A stretch of DNA of 43,058 nucleotides from positions 1-43,058 of IMG/VR virus record IMGVR_UViG_3300036791_001570; one strand, written 5' to 3'. This DNA comes from a virus. Below the pieces are notes generated by a model. The model did no database searches. It saw nothing but the letters and a program-made list of their open reading frames with translations, and had not been told where the DNA came from. Shown here in pieces: positions 1,441-38,802 of this stretch (its first letter is position 1; every line of letters starts with the position of its first letter). The position numbers and the translations under genes are program-made.

Positions 1441-1562
1441 CGGTGCCTCGGAATCAACGGTGGAATCTTTCGGTATACGCCGCACCATTGACAAGCTACG
1501 ATTTCCTTGGACGGTCCATCTTTGTCCACCACTGAAATCCAACGATGTGCGCAATCGCTCAT
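1437..1562 (-). CDS. 41-aa zinc-finger-type microprotein downstream of terL
   Basis: The frame starts at ATG 1560-1562, which overlaps the terL stop codon as ATGA. It ends at TGA 1437-1439, overlapping the ATG of the coiled-coil gene in the same way. Residues C4, H6, C24 and C27 form a plausible CxH...CxxC metal site. Double ATGA coupling and the metal-site pattern support a real gene despite its size. The role is unknown. Confidence 0.65.
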   Translation of the reverse strand: MSDCAHRWISVVDKDGPSKEIVACQWCGVYRKIPPLIPRHR

Positions 1563-3040
1563 CGGTGCCGCCTCAGCGTGAAAGCAATATCCGCTCCCGG
1601 CTTGATGGCCGCGAGCCGCAAATACTCCATGTACTTCTGCGTGGGATCTTCGATCTTCTGAATTCTGCGTTGCATTTCCACTTCGCGCGGGATGCGTTGC
1701 TCGGTGGCATAGCTCATCACGCCATATCTGAAACTTTCACAGACATCCAAGAACAGTTCGTTGCCCTTGGCCTGCGCGTCTTCGATGTTCTGCTCGTCGC
1801 GCATTAGCTCCGGTATGGACTCGATCACATCAGGGCAATTATCCAACACGGCGATTCCGTCTGTATCAAATAGCGTGTAACACAAACGCCAACCGTCGAC
1901 GCGCCGATTGTTTGCGCGGTCTGGACGGGGCAGATCATAACGCACAAAGACATCACCCATCTTGTCTGCGATGGAATGGTGCTGGTCGATGTGAGCAAAA
2001 CGATCAGGCGAAAGGTAGATTGCTCCAATGTGGTCCGCTTTGTCTCCGGTGTGGTTGGCTGACGCAATTTTTTCTGCCACCAGTTCTTCGTTCGTGTGCC
2101 GCAGAACCAGTTGCCGGTAGACTAACAGAATCGAGCGGCCCTGCTCTTCGTCCAGCTCCGTCTTCACGCGCACGCGCGTCCACCACAGCACTACGGTGGC
2201 GTGCTCAAATCCCCAGTCAATCGAGATCCAGCGCGGTTGCCACGGCTCGAAAATCACTTGCGAGAATTTCTTGACGTGCCGCTCGGGATCGAAATTCTGG
2301 AAGAATCTTCCGGCCAGTATTTGCCAGCTGCCGGGAATCCACGCCTGCCGCAGAATGGGATCGACAATGGAATTCAGCGAAGCAATGTAGTTCGCATCGT
2401 TCGCGTACACATAGTTGTCTTCAAACGTGGAATGCACCGCTTCGTATTCCCCGGGCTCGTAGTTCACTTTCATCTCGCCCACGGGATTCTTGGTGATCCA
2501 CAACGCTTTCACCCAGCCCGAGCCAATGCCATTGGGATTCGTCACTGCGCCCATGCGCGGCCTGACGGCATACTGCTTGCCGTCCAGCTCGTAGCTCTTG
2601 ATCGGACAACGGTTCGAGCCCTTCAGGAAGTCCCATTGCCGGTAGGTGAACTGCGTCAGTTCTTCCCAGCCGATGAAAAGAAATTCTGCGCCTTGATACT
2701 GCAGCAGGTCCGCATCGGTCTTGATGTGTCCAAAGAATAAATTGCTGCCGTTCGCGAATTTCACGACGTGACGCGAGGCGTTGTAGGTCAGGTACAAACG
2801 CTGCGGCACTTGCTTTAAGAACAGATCCTCGATGCCGCCCTTCTCCATGGCCGTGAGCGTTCTGCGCACCAGCAAACAGTTTGCGCCCGGGACGGCATTG
2901 CACTGCAGGATGGCTTCCCACATCAGCGCGGTAGTTTTGCCGCCGCCGCGACCGCCCTCGGCCAACGGATAGCGCGCAGGCGAATTGTGGAACAGCGCCT
3001 GCTTGGGCTGCGGCGTGTAGGCATCGGCAATGCGAATCAT
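1559..3040 (-). CDS. terL: Terminase large subunit (TerL)
   Basis: The protein has 493 aa, the usual TerL length. It powers DNA translocation into the procapsid and cuts the concatemer. Walker A is GGRGGGKT at residues 29-36, and Walker B is FLFIGWEE at 120-127 with the catalytic Glu pair. A coupling motif TNPNG lies at 167-171. The C-terminal RNase H-like nuclease begins with IDWG, D275 being the first metal ligand, and has a later acidic cluster DVCESFRYG. The start overlaps the stop of the TerS-like gene by ATGA. No homing endonuclease or intein interrupts it. The packaging mode cannot be read from sequence alone. Confidence 0.97.
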   Translation of the reverse strand: MIRIADAYTPQPKQALFHNSPARYPLAEGGRGGGKTTALMWEAILQCNAVPGANCLLVRRTLTAMEKGGIEDLFLKQVPQRLYLTYNASRHVVKFANGSNLFFGHIKTDADLLQYQGAEFLFIGWEELTQFTYRQWDFLKGSNRCPIKSYELDGKQYAVRPRMGAVTNPNGIGSGWVKALWITKNPVGEMKVNYEPGEYEAVHSTFEDNYVYANDANYIASLNSIVDPILRQAWIPGSWQILAGRFFQNFDPERHVKKFSQVIFEPWQPRWISIDWGFEHATVVLWWTRVRVKTELDEEQGRSILLVYRQLVLRHTNEELVAEKIASANHTGDKADHIGAIYLSPDRFAHIDQHHSIADKMGDVFVRYDLPRPDRANNRRVDGWRLCYTLFDTDGIAVLDNCPDVIESIPELMRDEQNIEDAQAKGNELFLDVCESFRYGVMSYATEQRIPREVEMQRRIQKIEDPTQKYMEYLRLAAIKPGADIAFTLRRHR

Positions 3041-4895: not shown

Positions 4896-4916
4896 GAGTG
4901 TCCAATCGTTCCCCAG

Positions 4917-5072
4917 TTAACGCACTGGGTTCCCCGTGGGGTTGCGCCTGATGACTTCCTGAAGAACTGCTACACCGGCTGGCGGTGCGTAAGCTGCACC
5001 AGCTTGCAGTGCCCTGATGGTCTGCGAGGTTACGCTGAAGGGAAATCTTTTTCAACCACCGATACTTTCCAT
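4917..5072 (-). pseudogene. Small frame with in-frame TGA (broken or misread gene)
   Basis: ATG 5070-5072 overlaps the TGA of the 69-aa gene (TGATG), the coupling used elsewhere in this genome. After six codons (MESIGG) an in-frame TGA occurs at 5052-5054. The frame then reads as clean protein for 43 residues (for example TIRALQAGAAYAPPAGVAVL) to TAA 4917-4919. No good start codon follows the TGA. This looks like a Trp codon turned to stop, a sequencing error, or a decayed gene. Recoding of TGA is unlikely because TGA ends many genes here. Confidence 0.45.
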
Positions 5073-5281: not shown

Positions 5282-5355
5282 AGTAGAATGCCCCTGCTGC
5301 GGCTAGGCTTTCGCGGGCCGAAAAACACGCACTCCGAGCGTGTCTGCCGCATTTT

Positions 5356-5661
5356 TTATTCCTTGCGCTTGACGAACGTCAGCCATTCCCCGGTCACCGG
5401 ATCGCGCTCGTGACTGATTTCGTAATCGTTGGTGGCCACCAGTTTGCCAAGCAACTTTTCGTTCAGCGCTTTGCTGGGACTTTCATACCGCTCAGGAAGA
5501 ATAATCTTGCCCGCCTCGAGGCATTCAGGACACACCAACGCAGCGCGCACGACGGCGTCCTCTGGAACTTCACTGGAAACGGATTTGCCGCAGAAGGTGC
5601 AGTACAGTCGCATGAGAGTTGCGGGCCGAGATGCGCCCCAGATCTTTCGACCCTCTAGCAT
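5356..5661 (-). CDS. Zinc-ribbon protein, 85-101 aa
   Basis: A CTFC pair and a CPEC pair about 24 residues apart form a typical zinc ribbon at the start of the folded part. The C-terminus has a YEISHERDPVTGEW segment. Two starts are possible: ATG 5659-5661 with AGGG upstream, or ATG 5611-5613 (MRLYCTFC), which begins right at the ribbon and gives 85 aa. I could not decide between them. The role is unknown. It lies between structural and nuclease genes. Confidence 0.72.
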   Translation of the reverse strand: MLEGRKIWGASRPATLMRLYCTFCGKSVSSEVPEDAVVRAALVCPECLEAGKIILPERYESPSKALNEKLLGKLVATNDYEISHERDPVTGEWLTFVKRKE

Positions 5662-13447: not shown

Positions 13448-14586
13448 GTACCACTCCTGATCAGCTGCAGGATGTCTGCGAGCTGCGAGACACGCACCTG
13501 CACGACGGACTTCAATTTGTAGTGGCGCGTGAGGAATTGCGCAACCTCCTCGGGAACCTTCCAGCCCATGACCGCAGCAGTGTTGTAAATTTCGGTCTGC
13601 TGCTTGGTCGAGATCAGCGCATCGTTAACTTCCCTGACCGGCGGGATGGTGGCTTTTGAAGGTTTTGTAGGTTTTGTAGGTTCGTTCTTGCTCTTCGCAA
13701 TGAGGGGATCGACAAGATCCTTGATCGGTTTTTTCTCCGACTGCTTGCCCTTTCTCGCATCCACGATATCGATGGACTCTTGCAACTGCTGCTCCATGGT
13801 GGGCTCGATGGGCTCGCCGTGGTAATCGTTGTTCACTTGGAAACCTTCGGGCGTGGCTTTCAGCAGCCCGGGCTTCTCCGCGTATTCATCCACGGTCACG
13901 GCACGCAACAGCCGGTCGCGCTGATCGGTCGTGGACTTTTGCAGCAGCTTGCAGAGTTTGCGAATGACACTTTTCCGCCACATTTCCTCAGGGTCAGTGC
14001 TCCAAGGAGTGGCCTTGCCGTCTCGTTTGAAGGAACGCCAAGATGGACTGCGGTCGCGCAACGCGAGAATCTGCGAGGCTTCCAAGTACTCGAAAGTGGT
14101 TTTGCCGGTCAGCAATTCGGCCACGGCATACGCGCCCAGCCAGTTGTCTTCTTTGTCAGGATTCGGAATCGGCGCGGGCTCGTGGTACAAGCCGCGATTG
14201 GTTCCCAAGATTCTTTTGAAGCGGTCTTTGCTTCGCACGATTTCAGCAGAGATGGCCGCGACCGTGCCGGTCTGATAAACCAAATGCATAAAGCCGCGAT
14301 ACCCGATGATGGGCACGGCGGTGTTTTTGAACGGGACCATATAAAAGTGTCCCAGCGTGTTGTTCAGTTCAAGACCCAACTCTGCAGCCTCCATTACGCA
14401 GCACAGCAGGGAATCACGGGTGCAAGCCATCAAGGCCGGGGAAGCTTTGATCATGGTAATTGCCAGTTGAATCATGCGTGCGACGCCCAGCTGATTCGGG
14501 ATTGCCGCCAGCAGCCGGTCGCGCAGTTCCTTGTTGCGGAAATAATCATCCACATCCTTGGACTTCATCACCATAGCTTCGGACAT
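13444..14586 (-). CDS. recT: RecT-family single-strand annealing protein
   Basis: The N-terminal 270 residues match RecT: helices ARMIQLAITMIKASPALMAC and VMEAAELGLELN, then GHFYMVPFKN, IIGYRGFMHLVYQTG and the late motif EEMWRKSVIRKL. The C-terminal 110 residues are a Lys/Pro linker and a helical tail (VPEEVAQFLTRHYKLK), giving 380 aa, longer than lambdoid RecT. It promotes annealing of single strands during recombination-dependent replication. A strong ribosome site (AAAGGAG) precedes ATG 14584-14586. Confidence 0.93.
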   Translation of the reverse strand: MSEAMVMKSKDVDDYFRNKELRDRLLAAIPNQLGVARMIQLAITMIKASPALMACTRDSLLCCVMEAAELGLELNNTLGHFYMVPFKNTAVPIIGYRGFMHLVYQTGTVAAISAEIVRSKDRFKRILGTNRGLYHEPAPIPNPDKEDNWLGAYAVAELLTGKTTFEYLEASQILALRDRSPSWRSFKRDGKATPWSTDPEEMWRKSVIRKLCKLLQKSTTDQRDRLLRAVTVDEYAEKPGLLKATPEGFQVNNDYHGEPIEPTMEQQLQESIDIVDARKGKQSEKKPIKDLVDPLIAKSKNEPTKPTKPSKATIPPVREVNDALISTKQQTEIYNTAAVMGWKVPEEVAQFLTRHYKLKSVVQVRVSQLADILQLIRSGT

Positions 14587-31688: not shown

Positions 31689-33038
31689 TTAGGTCGTTGG
31701 AATGATGTAGTACCAAGTCAAAACCGTTGCGGTGCCGGTGCCAGCGGTGAAGTTTCCCGTGGCTTTGCCGATGGTCAATGCCGCATTGTCATCGCTGGGT
31801 GGGTTGCCTGCTGTGTCAGTCGCCCCGGGCCAGAAAAAGGTCTGGATTCTGCGATTCGGAGTGACGGTCACGAGGAAGATGGCGTTGCTCGCGAGTGTTG
31901 CGCTCATCGAACCATTCGCGAAAGTTATCGCGCCGCCCCCGCCATCGAGGTATGCCACACCAGCGCCGAAAAATTTGATCACGATCAAGATCGGCACAAT
32001 CGTAAAGCCAACTCCCGGCGCTGCCACTAGCGTTATGGGCGTGGTGAAGAGCGCCAGAATTTGTGCAGAACTGAGTGCAGTGCTCGTAAACGGAAAGTCC
32101 TGCGCCGTCAATAAGCGGAAGGTGGGCAACGTAGCGGCACCGGAGCTGGGGCCCGCCCAGACGGTGTTCACGTTTTCATTCGCGAGCAGAATGGTGTCTG
32201 CGAGGGTGCCGCTAGCGGTGATCGGCGAACCGGTGACCGTGGAACTGAAGATGGGTGGAACGGTAAGCGTATGTGCGACGGAGCTTACCGTGCCGCTGCC
32301 ACCGGGCAGGTCCGCAGCGACCAACGCTCGAAAAGTCGGCGCAGTTGCGGCTCCCGTAGTGGGACCGGCCCAAACAGTGTTGGCCGATTCGGTGGCTTTG
32401 CTGGCCGTGAGCGTTCCTGAACCAACGACAGGTGATCCACTGATCGTGAATTCTGCGGGCATAGCAAGTGCTACGCTGGTCACAGATCCAGATCCGCCGC
32501 CAGCAACTACGTTCTGATCCGCGAGCACCAGCGGATTGATGCGGTTCAGCGTGTCGTAGAGCTGAACCGTATAGACTCCCGCCGTGGCATAGAAAAAGAA
32601 ATTTCCCAGCGTGTCGGTAAAGAACGGATTCGGCAGATACGAGGTGGTGATTGTGCCGACAACGGAAACGGTGCCGGGATTCGCGATGGCTGCGAGCGTG
32701 AATGGTGTGGTGACAACCACGGCTGTGCCGGTGACACTGACTACCTGCCAGATGCCGTTGTAACCGGTGGGCGTGTATCCGGCAGCGAGCAAATAGCTGC
32801 CAGCTATCACATCGGCGGGAGGCGTGGCCGTGAAAGTGAAAGTAATCTGCGCAGTGAGAGCACTCCATGAAGCGGTCGTTTGCGCTGGAGTATTCTGCAC
32901 GGCAGCATTGAAGATGGTGGCGAGCGGCGAGCCCGGTTGCGTGGTGGTATTCGCAGGTTGCGTGAGCACGGCAATGGACGCGCCCGCGATGGCATTGCCG
33001 ACAATATCCTGCACGCGCCCATCGTAGCGGTTGCTCAT
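31689..33038 (-). CDS. Tail fibre-like protein with duplicated modules, 449 aa
   Basis: Residues about 185-315 hold two copies of a fibre motif (NTVWAGPTTGAATAPTFR and NTVWAGPSSGAATLPTFR) preceded by GSGSVTSVA or GSGTVSSVA, a repeat common in phage tail fibres. The C-terminal 125 residues match the small protein at 4134-4661. The N-terminal part is beta-rich with a FFTDTLGNFFFYATAGVY strand block. The start has GGAG upstream and overlaps the adaptor stop (ATGA). Host adsorption is its likely role. Confidence 0.8.
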   Translation of the reverse strand: MSNRYDGRVQDIVGNAIAGASIAVLTQPANTTTQPGSPLATIFNAAVQNTPAQTTASWSALTAQITFTFTATPPADVIAGSYLLAAGYTPTGYNGIWQVVSVTGTAVVVTTPFTLAAIANPGTVSVVGTITTSYLPNPFFTDTLGNFFFYATAGVYTVQLYDTLNRINPLVLADQNVVAGGGSGSVTSVALAMPAEFTISGSPVVGSGTLTASKATESANTVWAGPTTGAATAPTFRALVAADLPGGSGTVSSVAHTLTVPPIFSSTVTGSPITASGTLADTILLANENVNTVWAGPSSGAATLPTFRLLTAQDFPFTSTALSSAQILALFTTPITLVAAPGVGFTIVPILIVIKFFGAGVAYLDGGGGAITFANGSMSATLASNAIFLVTVTPNRRIQTFFWPGATDTAGNPPSDDNAALTIGKATGNFTAGTGTATVLTWYYIIPTT

Positions 33039-33826
33039 CGGTAGTCTCCGCTGAGCGCGCCGTCAATTGTTCCACCCCCGGCAGCGTAACCTTGGAAGCG
33101 AATTGCGATGCGCTGATCACGCCGCACGTAACGGTTCACCAGCTCGTCGCACTCCTCTTTCCAGATCAGCTTGGCCTCGGCGCGCTGGCCAGCTCCGCGA
33201 CTGAAGGCATAGATCATCACCATGCCCATGGCCAGCGCATCTTCGCCGTCGCGAATGTTGATCGTGGTGTTCGCAAGGTTTGCCGTGAGCGAGATGCGCG
33301 GCAGGCGACCTTCGTAGCGAATGCGGATGTCCATGGAATTGGTGCAGCCCACGAGGTTGATGGCGTCATTGCGCCATTCCCACTCGCCAAAGTACGGGCC
33401 GGGAATGCGCGACATCAGCGGACCTTTTGCAGGCGTGAGCGGCACGTATTGCGCGCCGGAATTGGTCTGCCGCGCCATGAGTGAAAGCGGCAGGATCAGA
33501 TCCGGCGGGAGCACCGGCTGGGAAAGCACATTGGTGCCGTTGAAGTAGCCGAGCGCGGAAATAAAAACCTGCGTGCCGGGATCGGCATTCGCTACCGGCG
33601 TGATCGGCGTTAACACGGCATTGTCCACGACGTTGGAGAGCAGTCCGTTGTTCGCCAGATAGCGCTGCGTCTTCCGCGTCGCAATATTGAGCATCGGAAT
33701 GGAAAACGGCGCAGTGTCGGTCAGGATCGAGCCGCCGGTGGCCCTGATCATGTCATTGATCAAGGCTCGGGCGTCGTTCATTACGTCCTCAGCCACCGGG
33801 AAAGTTCCTTCGGCTACAGTTGTCAT
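33035..33826 (-). CDS. Head-tail adaptor/connector-type protein, 263 aa
   Basis: The sequence has an N-terminal helical part (DVMNDARALINDMIRATGG), a middle section with FSIPMLNIATRKTQRYLANN, and a basic C-terminus (RRDQRIAIRFQGYAAGGG), a layout like podovirus head-completion proteins. ATG 33824-33826 was chosen over the longer frame because GGAA lies before it and a structured RNA region sits upstream. The position after portal, coat and connector genes supports an adaptor role. The exact family is uncertain. Confidence 0.7.
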   Translation of the reverse strand: MTTVAEGTFPVAEDVMNDARALINDMIRATGGSILTDTAPFSIPMLNIATRKTQRYLANNGLLSNVVDNAVLTPITPVANADPGTQVFISALGYFNGTNVLSQPVLPPDLILPLSLMARQTNSGAQYVPLTPAKGPLMSRIPGPYFGEWEWRNDAINLVGCTNSMDIRIRYEGRLPRISLTANLANTTINIRDGEDALAMGMVMIYAFSRGAGQRAEAKLIWKEECDELVNRYVRRDQRIAIRFQGYAAGGGTIDGALSGDYR

Positions 33827-33862
33827 AGGCTGTTCCGTTACCCTGACCAAAAATTAGAGAAA

Positions 33863-33913
33863 GAGTTTTTGTGCAATTTCGTACAGGGCTGGGTTTTTGC
33901 ACGTTTTCGTACA
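33863..33913 (-). repeat. Two tandem 23-nt hairpin-forming repeats
   Basis: Two units at 33863-33885 and 33891-33913 match at 18 of 23 bases with a 28-base period. On the leftward strand the first-transcribed unit folds into a 7-bp stem with an AAAA loop (UUGUACG/CGUGCAA, one wobble pair), and the second folds more weakly. They lie between the three-way-junction RNA and the adaptor gene. They may be protein-binding RNA sites or operators. Confidence 0.6.
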
Positions 33914-33920
33914 AATGCAT

Positions 33921-34003
33921 GGGGAAGCAGAAGAGCTGCGAACCAACACAACTCCGGTGCCATGCTGAGATCAGGTACTCAGATGGCGAACCGCTGCTTC
34001 CCC
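33921..34003 (-). ncRNA. Predicted three-way-junction structured RNA, 83 nt
   Basis: On the leftward strand, P1 is a perfect 10-bp stem (GGGGAAGCAG/CTGCTTCCCC) closing the whole element. P2 is CGGT/ACCG, then GCCAT/ATGGC, then CTGAG/CTCAG with small bulges and an 8-base loop. P3 is a 6-bp stem (GAGUUG/CAGCUC) with one U-G wobble and a 10-base loop. The wobble pairs only on this strand, giving direction. It is not a tRNA: it has only two arms and no T-loop. No known family was recognised. It lies in a 221-base non-coding gap of the structural operon. Confidence 0.7.
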
Positions 34004-34017
34004 AAGACTGTTAGAGC

Positions 34018-34041
34018 ACAAATTCCTGTACAAGAATTTGT
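34018..34041. other. Inverted repeat with TGTACA core
   Basis: The arms ACAAATTC and GAATTTGT (8 bp) enclose CTGTACAA. It lies just after the stop codon of the 257-aa gene and before the structured RNA. It could be a leftward hairpin that separates the RNA from the upstream message, or an operator. It has no T-run. Confidence 0.5.
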
Positions 34042-34047
34042 TGACTT

Positions 34048-34821
34048 TTATCGCTTGCGTTTTGGCTTCGCTTCCACGCCCGCTTCTTCGCTGAGGTGAC
34101 GCACCATGGCGGTGTGAATTTCCTCACTGATCATTCCGGCCAGCAGCGCACGATCAGGATCGAACACATACCCGCACGGGTGCCGGATGATGCCCTGCTT
34201 CGCGGGCTCGCCGCAGCCCGGGCACTCCATGGTCTTTTTGTAGATCCTGTTCCACGCGCGGTCTTCGCCGAAATAAGACGCGGCAATGCGCATCAGCGGT
34301 GTGATGTCGTCGATGCGCCCCGCTGCCTCGATGGACGTGGCCATGTTCAGCAGTTTGCGATAGGTGACTTCCATCTTGGTGCGTGCGGCTGTAATCTCCA
34401 CACCGAGTGGCGGATTGTTGCGCGTCCAGAACACGCCCAGATCGTCCAGATTCGCGCCCATCGACCACCAGCTTTTGCCTGCGCCGTAGCTGGCCGTGAC
34501 GGGATGCACGATATCGACGGCCATGAATTCGCCGCTAACCGAATGCGTTTTCATTTCCTGCTCGACAAAATACGAATCCCTCCAGACCGACGGCAGCACG
34601 AGCGGCTCGCTGAATGGTTGGTTGTCGAGACACGGGTTAATGACGAACGTGCCTGCGGAGCCTTTTTCCACGCGGTGCTGCATGGGGCCGAGGTTGTAGA
34701 CGTACACTTTGTAACTTGGATCGCTGGACGCCGTGGTGTCTGGCGTGTAGATCAGCGGGCCGTTCAAGTCCTGCTCGCGTGCGCGCGCCGAGGCAATCGC
34801 GCCCGGTGTATCACTAGGCAT
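34048..34821 (-). CDS. Virion-module protein with C-terminal zinc ribbon, 257 aa
   Basis: The middle region is conserved-looking (SYKVYVYNLGPMQHRVEKGS, YFVEQEMKTHSVSGEFMAVD, YGAGKSWWSMGANLDDLGVF). The C-terminus holds CPGC and HPCG, a zinc-ribbon pattern, then a basic tail (EAKPKRKR). GGGAGG precedes ATG 34819-34821. It lies between head genes and the structured RNA. It is probably a capsid or connector-associated protein. The function is unknown. Confidence 0.75.
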   Translation of the reverse strand: MPSDTPGAIASARAREQDLNGPLIYTPDTTASSDPSYKVYVYNLGPMQHRVEKGSAGTFVINPCLDNQPFSEPLVLPSVWRDSYFVEQEMKTHSVSGEFMAVDIVHPVTASYGAGKSWWSMGANLDDLGVFWTRNNPPLGVEITAARTKMEVTYRKLLNMATSIEAAGRIDDITPLMRIAASYFGEDRAWNRIYKKTMECPGCGEPAKQGIIRHPCGYVFDPDRALLAGMISEEIHTAMVRHLSEEAGVEAKPKRKR

Positions 34822-34862
34822 CTTATCCTCCCGATTAAGGAACATTAAATGGTGGTTTGTTG

Positions 34863-35567
34863 TTACCCGATAAGGCGACGGCGCTGCACGTGGCCGAGTC
34901 CCATTCGCCGCACAACCTCGTCGCGCGAAATCTTCATGCCTGCTTGCTTTTCGGCGATACGCGACAGCCACGCTTCACGGTTGCTTTCATAAGATCCGGC
35001 AGCACCACCAAAAGCAGGCCCAGCTTCCATGTAGGCATCGTACGCAATTCTTGCTGATCGTTCGCGCTCCATGCGCATGCGGTTTTCGATGGCGGCTTTC
35101 TTTTGCGCATAGGTCACGTCTTGCTCTTTCAGCAGATTCGGGATGGTCAGGTCGAGAATGTAATGGTTCAGCGGCATGGCGTCGAACGTGACGAAGCCGC
35201 AGATGACGTTCTTCACGTACAGGTTGAACGGCACCGGCTCGTACAAGCCGCGATGCGGATAGTCCCCTATCGTGGGCGCATCCGTTTCCGCGTTCCACGT
35301 CAGGGCGTACCACAGCTCCGGGGTGCCGAAACATTCCGGCGGCTTCCAAGCTTCGATGACCCACGCGGGCACGTCATGTTTCAAGATGACATGTTGCCCG
35401 CATCGGCCATTGGCATCCTCGCCCCAGACCAGATCGGTTTCGTTCTGGCCCCACACAATTCTGAAATTCGGCTCATCGTAGCGGTTCATGCCGCCAATGG
35501 AATTGAGGTGCGCGACGTATTCGGGCGGCGTCTCGCGCCGTTCGCGGTCAGGGATTAGCCACGTCAT
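34863..35567 (-). CDS. Conserved-type structural-module protein, 234 aa
   Basis: The sequence starts MTWLIPDRERRETPPEYVAH and has aromatic-rich segments (FRIVWGQNETDLVWGE, GTPELWYALTWNAETDAP) followed by a long charged helix (NLLKEQDVTYAQKKAAIENR). The start overlaps the GroES stop (ATGA). It resembles conserved hypothetical proteins found with phage coat genes. The role is unknown. It may be a minor head protein. Confidence 0.72.
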   Translation of the reverse strand: MTWLIPDRERRETPPEYVAHLNSIGGMNRYDEPNFRIVWGQNETDLVWGEDANGRCGQHVILKHDVPAWVIEAWKPPECFGTPELWYALTWNAETDAPTIGDYPHRGLYEPVPFNLYVKNVICGFVTFDAMPLNHYILDLTIPNLLKEQDVTYAQKKAAIENRMRMERERSARIAYDAYMEAGPAFGGAAGSYESNREAWLSRIAEKQAGMKISRDEVVRRMGLGHVQRRRLIG

Positions 35568-35881
35568 TTGCTGTCAGCTTTCCAGCCGTCATATTTTTGC
35601 CGCAGGTAAATTTCATCGAAGCGCATCAGCAGGTAATCCTCGCCATCGATAGTGATTTCCGTTGCGCCATATTTCGTGAACATCACGATGTCGCCAACAT
35701 TTAACGGCAGCGGCTCGATTTTTCCGTTGATCAGTCGGCCTGCGCCCACGGCAACCACCGTACCTTTGGAGGATTTTACGCGAGCAATTTCTGGAATGAT
35801 CAAGCCGCGCTTCACTTCCGCATCTTCGTCGATGCGCTTGACGATTACGCGGTCACTGAACGGTTCAAGATTCTGCAGCAT
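35564..35881 (-). CDS. groES: GroES-like co-chaperonin (phage Cpn10)
   Basis: The protein has 105 aa and the full GroES pattern: LEPFSDRVIVKRIDED at the N-terminus, the mobile loop (KRGLIIPEIARVKSSKG), the roof and strand region GTVVAVGAGRLINGKIEPLP with LNVGDIVMFTKYGATEI, and DGEDYLLMRFDEIYL. It would cap host GroEL to fold the large phage coat protein, as T4 gp31 does. It is encoded directly after the coat gene. GGGGG precedes the start. A short C-terminal extension (RQKYDGWKADSK) is beyond usual length. Confidence 0.94.
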   Translation of the reverse strand: MLQNLEPFSDRVIVKRIDEDAEVKRGLIIPEIARVKSSKGTVVAVGAGRLINGKIEPLPLNVGDIVMFTKYGATEITIDGEDYLLMRFDEIYLRQKYDGWKADSK

Positions 35882-37494: not shown

Positions 37495-38784
37495 TCACCA
37501 TTTGGCCTGTTTGCCGTTTTTAAGATAAGCCGTGCCATGCCGTCCAATCGAGGAGAGATACGTGGCCTTGTCGGTGCGCGTGAAATCGACTTCGGAAGTT
37601 CGCGGTCTGCCAGCAACGGTCGAGGAAGATCCCCGTTCCCCGCCGCTGCCAGCAGTGCGGCGCAATGTGGTCCCCCCACCGTTGCGGCCAGCAATATTGA
37701 AATCGCGCAGAACTTTTTTTACCACCAGCGGAAGTTTGGCTCGCGCTGCGGAGGTGATGAACTTCACCGCATGGTCAGGATCAGCCTGCGCCATCACGGC
37801 ATTGTATTTGGCCGTATAGCCGTCTGCCGTGTTCACTGCGTGGGCCAAGTCTTCGTTGATCTGCTTGCGCACGCGATTCGCCGTGCCCACGGTCAGCTTG
37901 CGACCGGCCAGCTCTTGGCGCAGCAAGCGGTTGGTGTAGCCCATCACTTCGTTGCTCACTTGCGAGCGCACGCCACCGTAAAACGTGCTGGTGCGTTCCT
38001 TCTGCACCTCGCTGCGTTCCTGCTGCAACTTTTCGCGGTCGGCTTTGAGGGGATCAGGCGCATGGGCCTGCGTCGCAAAGCTGCGCAGTTCGCGGAAGAA
38101 CTGCTTCAGCGCGCCTTGATGTTTGACGATGTCTTCAAAGCGCTCGCCCGCGATGGCCGTTTCCAGATCCGCGAGCGTGCCATACACACCGCAACGTTCC
38201 ATGGTGCGCACGATGGCAGGCGAAATCGCGCGGTCGTGCGCAGCCAGATCCATGGACTCCAGCTTGGCGATGGCCGGTCCAACGATCAGCTTGAAACCAT
38301 CGGGATATTGTTCTGCTATGGTCGAGACGAGGACGGGATCGCCGTCGCGGAAACCCTGATCCATCAGCCGCGAGGCTTCCACCTCCTCGGCCATCTCCGC
38401 AATAGCCTGCGGCCCGCCGTGCTGCTCTACTGTCTCAGCAGCAGCGCGCAGCGTCTGCAAGCCCCCATATCTATCGGTTTGTTGAGATTTGAATAAGGCG
38501 GCACTGAGTTGTCGTTCAAGTCTGGGGTTGGCTTTTCCGAATTCGGGATTTCCGGCAATGAATTCTCGGAGGGCTTTGCGGAGCTGGGTGGGAAGAGATC
38601 TTGCTGCTGCTCGGTCGTCTTCCCTCGGGCCTTGCTCTTCCGTTTCTTCTGCGCCTTCGGTTTCTTCCGCAGGGGTTTCAGCTGGTGATTCTTCTTCGAT
38701 TTCATCTGGGCCCGGTCCTTCTTCGGGTTCGCCACTTATACCACTGTCGTCTTCAAGCAGACCTAGATCCTCTGCATCACCCAT
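37495..38784 (-). CDS. Capsid scaffold protein, 429 aa
   Basis: The N-terminal 60 residues are very acidic (GEPEEGPGPDEIEEESPAET) and the middle is helical with a coiled-coil segment (ADREKLQQERSEVQKERTST). The C-terminus is basic, as in scaffold proteins that contact coat. The place between portal and coat is classical. AGGAGG precedes ATG 38782-38784. It would guide procapsid assembly and then leave or be cut. No protease is encoded nearby. Confidence 0.82.
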   Translation of the reverse strand: MGDAEDLGLLEDDSGISGEPEEGPGPDEIEEESPAETPAEETEGAEETEEQGPREDDRAAARSLPTQLRKALREFIAGNPEFGKANPRLERQLSAALFKSQQTDRYGGLQTLRAAAETVEQHGGPQAIAEMAEEVEASRLMDQGFRDGDPVLVSTIAEQYPDGFKLIVGPAIAKLESMDLAAHDRAISPAIVRTMERCGVYGTLADLETAIAGERFEDIVKHQGALKQFFRELRSFATQAHAPDPLKADREKLQQERSEVQKERTSTFYGGVRSQVSNEVMGYTNRLLRQELAGRKLTVGTANRVRKQINEDLAHAVNTADGYTAKYNAVMAQADPDHAVKFITSAARAKLPLVVKKVLRDFNIAGRNGGGTTLRRTAGSGGERGSSSTVAGRPRTSEVDFTRTDKATYLSSIGRHGTAYLKNGKQAKW

Positions 38785-38802
38785 GACTGCCTCCTGATTG
38801 TT

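Follow-up and report, generated by a model that had tools for sequence, protein, structure and literature searches.

CopA, RNAI, Sok, and the trans-acting small RNAs are antisense or base-pairing RNAs that use a hairpin loop to block ribosome-binding sites. How the scaffold and coat proteins encoded in one phage operon are kept in balance is an old question, and the usual answers are protein feedback or the strength of the ribosome-binding sites. In phage P22, scaffold synthesis is under a post-transcriptional control that has been attributed to the scaffold protein itself. Phage-derived small RNAs, including PreS and the lambda aQ RNA, regulate by base pairing, and a word search of the review that covers them finds neither scaffold nor capsid genes named among the targets (PMC12197685).

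The element described here is encoded in a 43,058-nt stretch of viral DNA (IMG/VR record IMGVR_UViG_3300036791_001570), the whole of which is referred to below as the window. Like CopA, RNAI, Sok, and the trans-acting small RNAs, it is a structured hairpin offering a short complementary loop to ribosome-binding sites. Unlike them, it is flanked by two structural genes and shares a strand with its proposed targets, and its candidate pairing sites are repeated in several genes of its own operon. With PreS and the lambda aQ RNA it shares a phage origin and a proposed function in regulation by base pairing. As in P22, scaffold output would be adjusted within the structural operon, except that the regulator would be an RNA and not the scaffold protein. 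We consider it probable, at roughly 0.7, that the element is a conserved intercistronic regulator of the antisense type that competes with the ribosome for sites at the assembly genes.

Location and fold of the element

The element is located in an intergenic gap of 221 bases (positions 33827 to 34047), the size given in the preliminary description, with the gene for a Zn-ribbon protein (34048 to 34821, minus strand) on one side and that for an adaptor-like protein (33035 to 33826, minus strand) on the other. The whole conserved RNA, including its 5′ UCUU and 3′ GC flanks, is delimited by a covariance-model match at positions 33917 to 34008 of the minus strand. The model, R1, scores the window element at 21.8 bits (E value of 7e-6 in its own record), this element being among the sequences used to build the model.

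The 83 nt at positions 33921 to 34003 of the minus strand fold with a minimum free energy of −46.9 kcal/mol (z score of −6.6), and none of 200 shuffled sequences folds as well. RNAfold predicts a closing stem, P1, of 10 bp, a bulged P2 arm of 14 bp (4+5+5), and a second arm of 8 bp. The stem and the bulged arm are those of the preliminary description, which had given the remaining arm 6 bp. The plus strand of the same segment has a weaker fold (−38.2; z score of −5.5), so the earlier argument for the leftward strand holds. Both strands of P1, the 5′ strand GGGGAAGCAG (33994 to 34003, minus strand) and the 3′ strand CUGCUUCCCC (33921 to 33930, minus strand), are supported by the minimum-free-energy fold and by compensatory changes. 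P2 (33955 to 33993, minus strand) is supported by the minimum-free-energy fold, by the same plan in relatives, and by covariation on a structure-fitted alignment. It consists of a lower helix, a UC bulge, a middle helix, a 1-nt bulge on the 3′ side (position 33964), an upper helix, and the apical loop UACCUGAU (33970 to 33977, minus strand), in which CCUG is invariant in all carriers. The segment CCUGAU of this loop (33970 to 33975, minus strand) is the one proposed to pair with targets. The P3 arm (33933 to 33954, minus strand) is found only in the clade of the window phage.

ARAGORN finds no tRNA at the element, which is not assigned to the tRNAs or tmRNAs, and no Rfam family matches it at the gathering score, in line with the earlier statement that it belongs to neither the tRNAs nor a known RNA family. 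At E values of up to 10, Rfam searches of the window give only two sub-threshold matches, both outside the element, and searches of the window with two relatives give a few, located elsewhere or on the other strand. Judged from these sequence comparisons, the element is a conserved RNA family absent from Rfam. Far from the structural operon, at positions 5296 to 5368 of the plus strand, the window contains a match to the int-alpA RNA (RF02996) that narrowly exceeds the gathering score.

A U-rich stretch follows the element in 9 of the 20 carriers and may cause partial termination. A search for promoter-like sites around the RNA of the window found none. In the window phage only, the RNA is flanked by partly palindromic near-repeats (33875 to 33915 and 34010 to 34031; TTGTACGAAAACGTGCAAAA, CTGTACGAAATTGCACAAAA, and CTTGTACAGGAATTTGTGC). 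Other sequences were noted next to the RNA in relatives, namely, TGAAACAAATGTTTCA and TGAAACAGGCGTTTCA after the RNA of L007 and AACTTAAGTT nearby in L010 and L047.

Carriers and conservation of structure

The element is found in a single copy, in the same gene gap, in 20 related phage records (the window and 19 further ones); its equivalent place in all 19 indicates more than chance. No record contains a second convincing copy, and the weaker matches score far below the carriers. The relatives are metagenome contigs, several of them presumably from soil samples, found among viral contigs by using the adaptor, head, and scaffold-like proteins as queries. Similarity searches at the DNA level against named phages and plasmids give nothing useful, and an exact 20-mer scan gives nothing. 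Head-protein and adaptor searches of 50,697 named phage records return no matches, and an adaptor scan of bacterial genomes reveals no relatives. Scanning viral contigs with a loosely defined motif yields 93 stretches, with strong matches only to the carriers already known; those in L080, L082, and L132 proved false on refolding.

The covariance model, which is based on a trimmed structure-fitted alignment, recovers three sequences from outside its training set: L050 (47 bits; E value of 7e-15), L228 (28 bits), and L225 (23 bits). According to the model, the element is absent from the whole records of four relatives, and inspection of the gap shows it to be absent from a few more. The RNA-less L020 has, in the same gap (approximately 4910 to 5000), a long stem of its own (TGCCGGGGC/GCCCCGGCA) around smaller hairpins, without the conserved sequence of the element. 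L016 has a weak match to the model (positions 1453 to 1526; 13.2 bits; E value of 0.21) directly ahead of the adaptor gene and in part within the end of the Zn-ribbon gene, possibly a diverged copy without CCUG.

When folded singly, the relatives share a common plan, in which P1 is followed by three P2 helices (lower, short middle, and upper). The lower and middle helices are separated by an asymmetric internal loop (mostly 3 to 4 nt versus about 1), the middle and upper ones usually by a single bulged nucleotide on the 3′ strand or by a 1×1 mismatch, and CCUG is located in the apical loop. The invariant parts of the element are the 5′ CUU, the P1-P2 hairpin, the apical CCUG, and the 3′ GC. 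L002, where the minimum free energy favors another fold, and L225, with a larger loop, fit this plan less well, and L047 is weakly more stable than its shuffled versions (z score of −1.35). P3 is present in the window phage, L002, L006, L008, L030, L032, L047, and L228 and is missing from the other lineages. Since the third arm is confined to one clade, the three-way junction is not the essence of the element.

A plain MAFFT alignment of 8 sequences shows 6 of the 10 P1 pairs changed on both sides with pairing kept and the innermost pair broken in three of the sequences. In a hand alignment of 16 sequences, which was fitted to the structure, padded with N's, and stripped of P3 and one bulged base, 98% of the cells pair. 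Changes on both sides affect 26 of its 27 pairs (14.5 in shuffled controls and 6 to 10 in slid ones), a figure biased toward the structure by the way in which the alignment was constructed. The analysis of compensatory changes covers P1 and P2; P3 is lineage-specific and too variable to align. A lack of such changes in related phages had been named in the preliminary description as grounds for rejecting the element; P1 and P2 both covary.

Complementarity of the apical loop to ribosome-binding sites

The main proposed target is p429 (37495 to 38784, minus strand), encoded between the portal and the major head protein. Composition and structure prediction indicate an acidic, disordered N terminus and a helical body, which, together with the position of the gene, suggest that p429 is a scaffold protein. 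The second proposed target, on the evidence of its site, is the Zn-ribbon protein of the virion operon, recognized by its conserved cysteines and its structural model; the cysteines are invariant, and the gene ends just upstream of the RNA. For neither p429 nor the Zn-ribbon protein does the model have a PDB match at an E value of up to 0.001, so no RNA-binding partner is named. At the start of the adaptor-like gene, directly downstream of the RNA, none of the carriers shows loop complementarity reaching 6 nt. In L045 (9897), L046 (9895), and L049 (10422), the adaptor gene apparently starts with ATC, 5 nt past an AAGGAG Shine-Dalgarno sequence, and has no in-frame ATG, GTG, or TTG at the conserved N terminus.

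The match between loop and sites was first noticed on inspection of Shine-Dalgarno sequences. Sites resembling AATCAGG-AGG, the complement of the loop, are present at the starts of the p429 and Zn-ribbon genes, and often there are two or three of them. The window phage has 6-bp matches only. One proposed site, AUCAGG (38793 to 38798, minus strand), is part of the ribosome-binding site (AAUCAGGAGGCAGUC-AUG) of the scaffold-like gene, and the other, AUCGGG (34830 to 34835, minus strand), is part of that of the Zn-ribbon gene and would pair with one G-U wobble.

Matches of at least 6 nt to a phage's own loop are found at p429 in 17 of 17 carriers, at the Zn-ribbon gene in 14 of 18, at GroES in 6 of 13, at p203 in 4 of 13, and at exo213 in 2 of 6, against a background rate of 5 to 8%. 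In the carriers scored, there are none at the genes for the portal, MCP, p234, adaptor, p449, and p131. The GroES-like co-chaperonin is encoded by the phage within the structural operon (35564 to 35881, minus strand; Cpn10, E value of 4e-23), and a loop-complementary motif is seen at its start in about half of the carriers, the window not being among them. The exonuclease gene that ends the RecT cluster of the window starts after GATCAGGAG (13456 to 13461, minus strand), 7 nt of which are complementary to the loop region; such complementarity at the exonuclease start is found in only 2 of 6 carriers.

Loops with UUCCCUG or UCCCUGU are accompanied by sites with CAGGGAA or ACAGGGA, and the loop CCUGAGUU of G017 is accompanied by sites with AACUCAGG. 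The heptamer AATCAGG occurs 22 times before genes of the carriers (2.3 expected), where it is strand-biased and close to start codons; it is not so placed in RNA-less relatives, and the sites are absent from four of these. In G003, the motif is present 7 times on the strand of the RNA, 6 of them before a start, and not at all on the opposite strand. The nearest CAGG copies are about 9 to 16 nt before the start codon and are thus part of the Shine-Dalgarno sequence. The CAGG match is in part common to any Shine-Dalgarno sequence that contains AGG, and flank-shuffled loops that retain CCUG still average 5.1 nt. The Zn-ribbon site is absent from G013, G014, and G016, and in these and G018 the base after CCUG is mostly unpaired with the site. 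In the majority of carriers the loop contains CUGA, which conforms to the YUNR motif of antisense RNAs.

Loop and sites also change together. In the first 16 carriers, which were both the source and the first test of the loop-site idea, the own loop matches the own sites over 6.75 nt, compared with 5.66 nt for the loops of others (loop-swap permutation, P = 5e-5). With L225 and L228 added, the values are 6.92 and 5.64 nt (permutation, P = 2e-5), and an exact permutation of seven clades places the observed arrangement at 2 of 5,040 by match length and 6 of 5,040 by energy. Because the idea came from the first 16 genomes, those added later carry the most weight. L225, identified only after this idea had arisen, combines the loop UUCUCCUGGUUU with sites AAACCAGGAG before p429, a small open reading frame, and the Zn-ribbon gene, giving perfect matches of 10 nt at p429 and 11 nt at the Zn-ribbon gene with bases changed on both partners. 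In L228, the other later addition, the matches at both genes are 6 nt long and would be weak when taken alone. Thus, the element has two features of base-pairing regulatory RNAs, an exposed loop that is complementary to ribosome-binding sites of the proposed targets and co-variation with these targets, the latter with few independent changes (perhaps four to six, because the genomes are related). Pairing of the loop to the ribosome-binding sites of assembly genes is strongly supported at the sequence level.

Proposed mode of action and its alternatives

In the proposed mechanism, the apical loop of P2 (CCUG and its flanks) would pair with CAGG-containing repeats at or just before the Shine-Dalgarno sequences of the scaffold-like and Zn-ribbon genes and, in many phages, also of the GroES gene or a small open reading frame in the same operon. 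Such pairing would compete with 16S rRNA and lower the translation of these genes, so that the output of assembly proteins would track the amount of structural-operon transcript. Being complementary to the ribosome-binding sites and having changed along with them, the loop probably tunes the output of p429 and its neighbors, which supports translational control among the three earlier guesses, the others being packaging and host-factor binding. The predicted unpaired state of the sites (0.57) is similar to that of their surroundings (0.56), which fits direct occlusion and not unmasking. The effect on the targets would be repression, and the RNA would act in trans, as a free molecule. P1 and the conserved flanks might bind a protein, stabilize the RNA, or serve in its processing. 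Pairing does not account for the CUU and GC flanks or for the internal loop, which suggest a further partner, e.g., a processing enzyme or a chaperone.

The same pairing might take place in cis, with the loop binding an upstream ribosome-binding site of the same polycistronic mRNA and no separate RNA involved. The RNA and its targets share a strand and a gene cluster, with the Zn-ribbon site about 0.8 kb and the p429 site about 4.5 to 6 kb upstream, and the lack of a detected promoter-like site near the RNA in the window fits as well. However, with two or three target genes and as many as three copies of the site at each, a single loop cannot occupy all of them at once, which favors action in trans, and translating ribosomes would disrupt pairing over 4 to 5 kb; cis control is a tentative possibility. 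Since the sign of the effect cannot be read from complementarity alone, the RNA might instead keep the ribosome-binding sites open or stabilize the mRNA. A positive effect is unlikely, since the nearest site copy is the Shine-Dalgarno sequence itself and the accessibility of the sites reveals no obvious block to be relieved. It is also rather improbable that the element is a protein-binding or processing site (an operator, an RNase III or RNase E site, or a chaperone site) that influences the adaptor gene or mRNA decay, with the complementarity as a by-product. Its flanks, internal loop, and bulge do resemble a recognized surface, it is tightly fitted between a stop and a start codon, and several adaptor genes have no clear Shine-Dalgarno sequence, but this reading leaves the matches in all 17 carriers, the specificity for certain genes, and the co-variation unexplained.

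Since the loop and the sites correspond to a single double-stranded sequence read in opposite directions, the motif might instead be bound by a regulator at the DNA level, with one copy in the RNA region and several ahead of genes. The strand bias of the motif and its position at the Shine-Dalgarno sequences of carriers (7 copies versus 0 in G003) make this very doubtful, as does the constant placement of the RNA copy within the unpaired loop of a covarying hairpin. The preliminary description had emphasized the three-way junction, compared it with that of the phi29 packaging RNA (pRNA), and suggested a function in packaging. A junction of this kind does exist in one clade, and the element is located among head genes. 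Unlike that of the pRNA, the junction is not conserved, being missing from most lineages; the large terminase (1559 to 3040) is of another type, Terminase_3; and no match to the pRNA was detected in Rfam. Packaging thus appears a most improbable function.

Several other readings were rejected. Translational bypassing of the T4 gene 60 type was discarded when inspection by eye showed mismatched take-off and landing codons in L038 and L044. Readthrough of a stop codon is at odds with L012, where the frame is closed within the element. The CUGA sequence prompted a consideration of hammerhead-type self-cleavage, but the rest of the core, as generally defined for hammerheads, is missing.

Under the preferred reading, i.e., a free antisense-type RNA that competes with the ribosome, it is on balance likely that an RNA circuit sets the levels of the scaffold, Zn-ribbon, and chaperonin proteins by antisense pairing and, through them, the stoichiometry of capsid assembly. 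The element adds an RNA family that is lacking in Rfam, and the loop-site predictions are specific enough for reporter plasmids, with no need to cultivate the phages. If true, the proposed mechanism would be an RNA-based answer to the question of scaffold/coat balance, conserved across a group of uncultivated phages.
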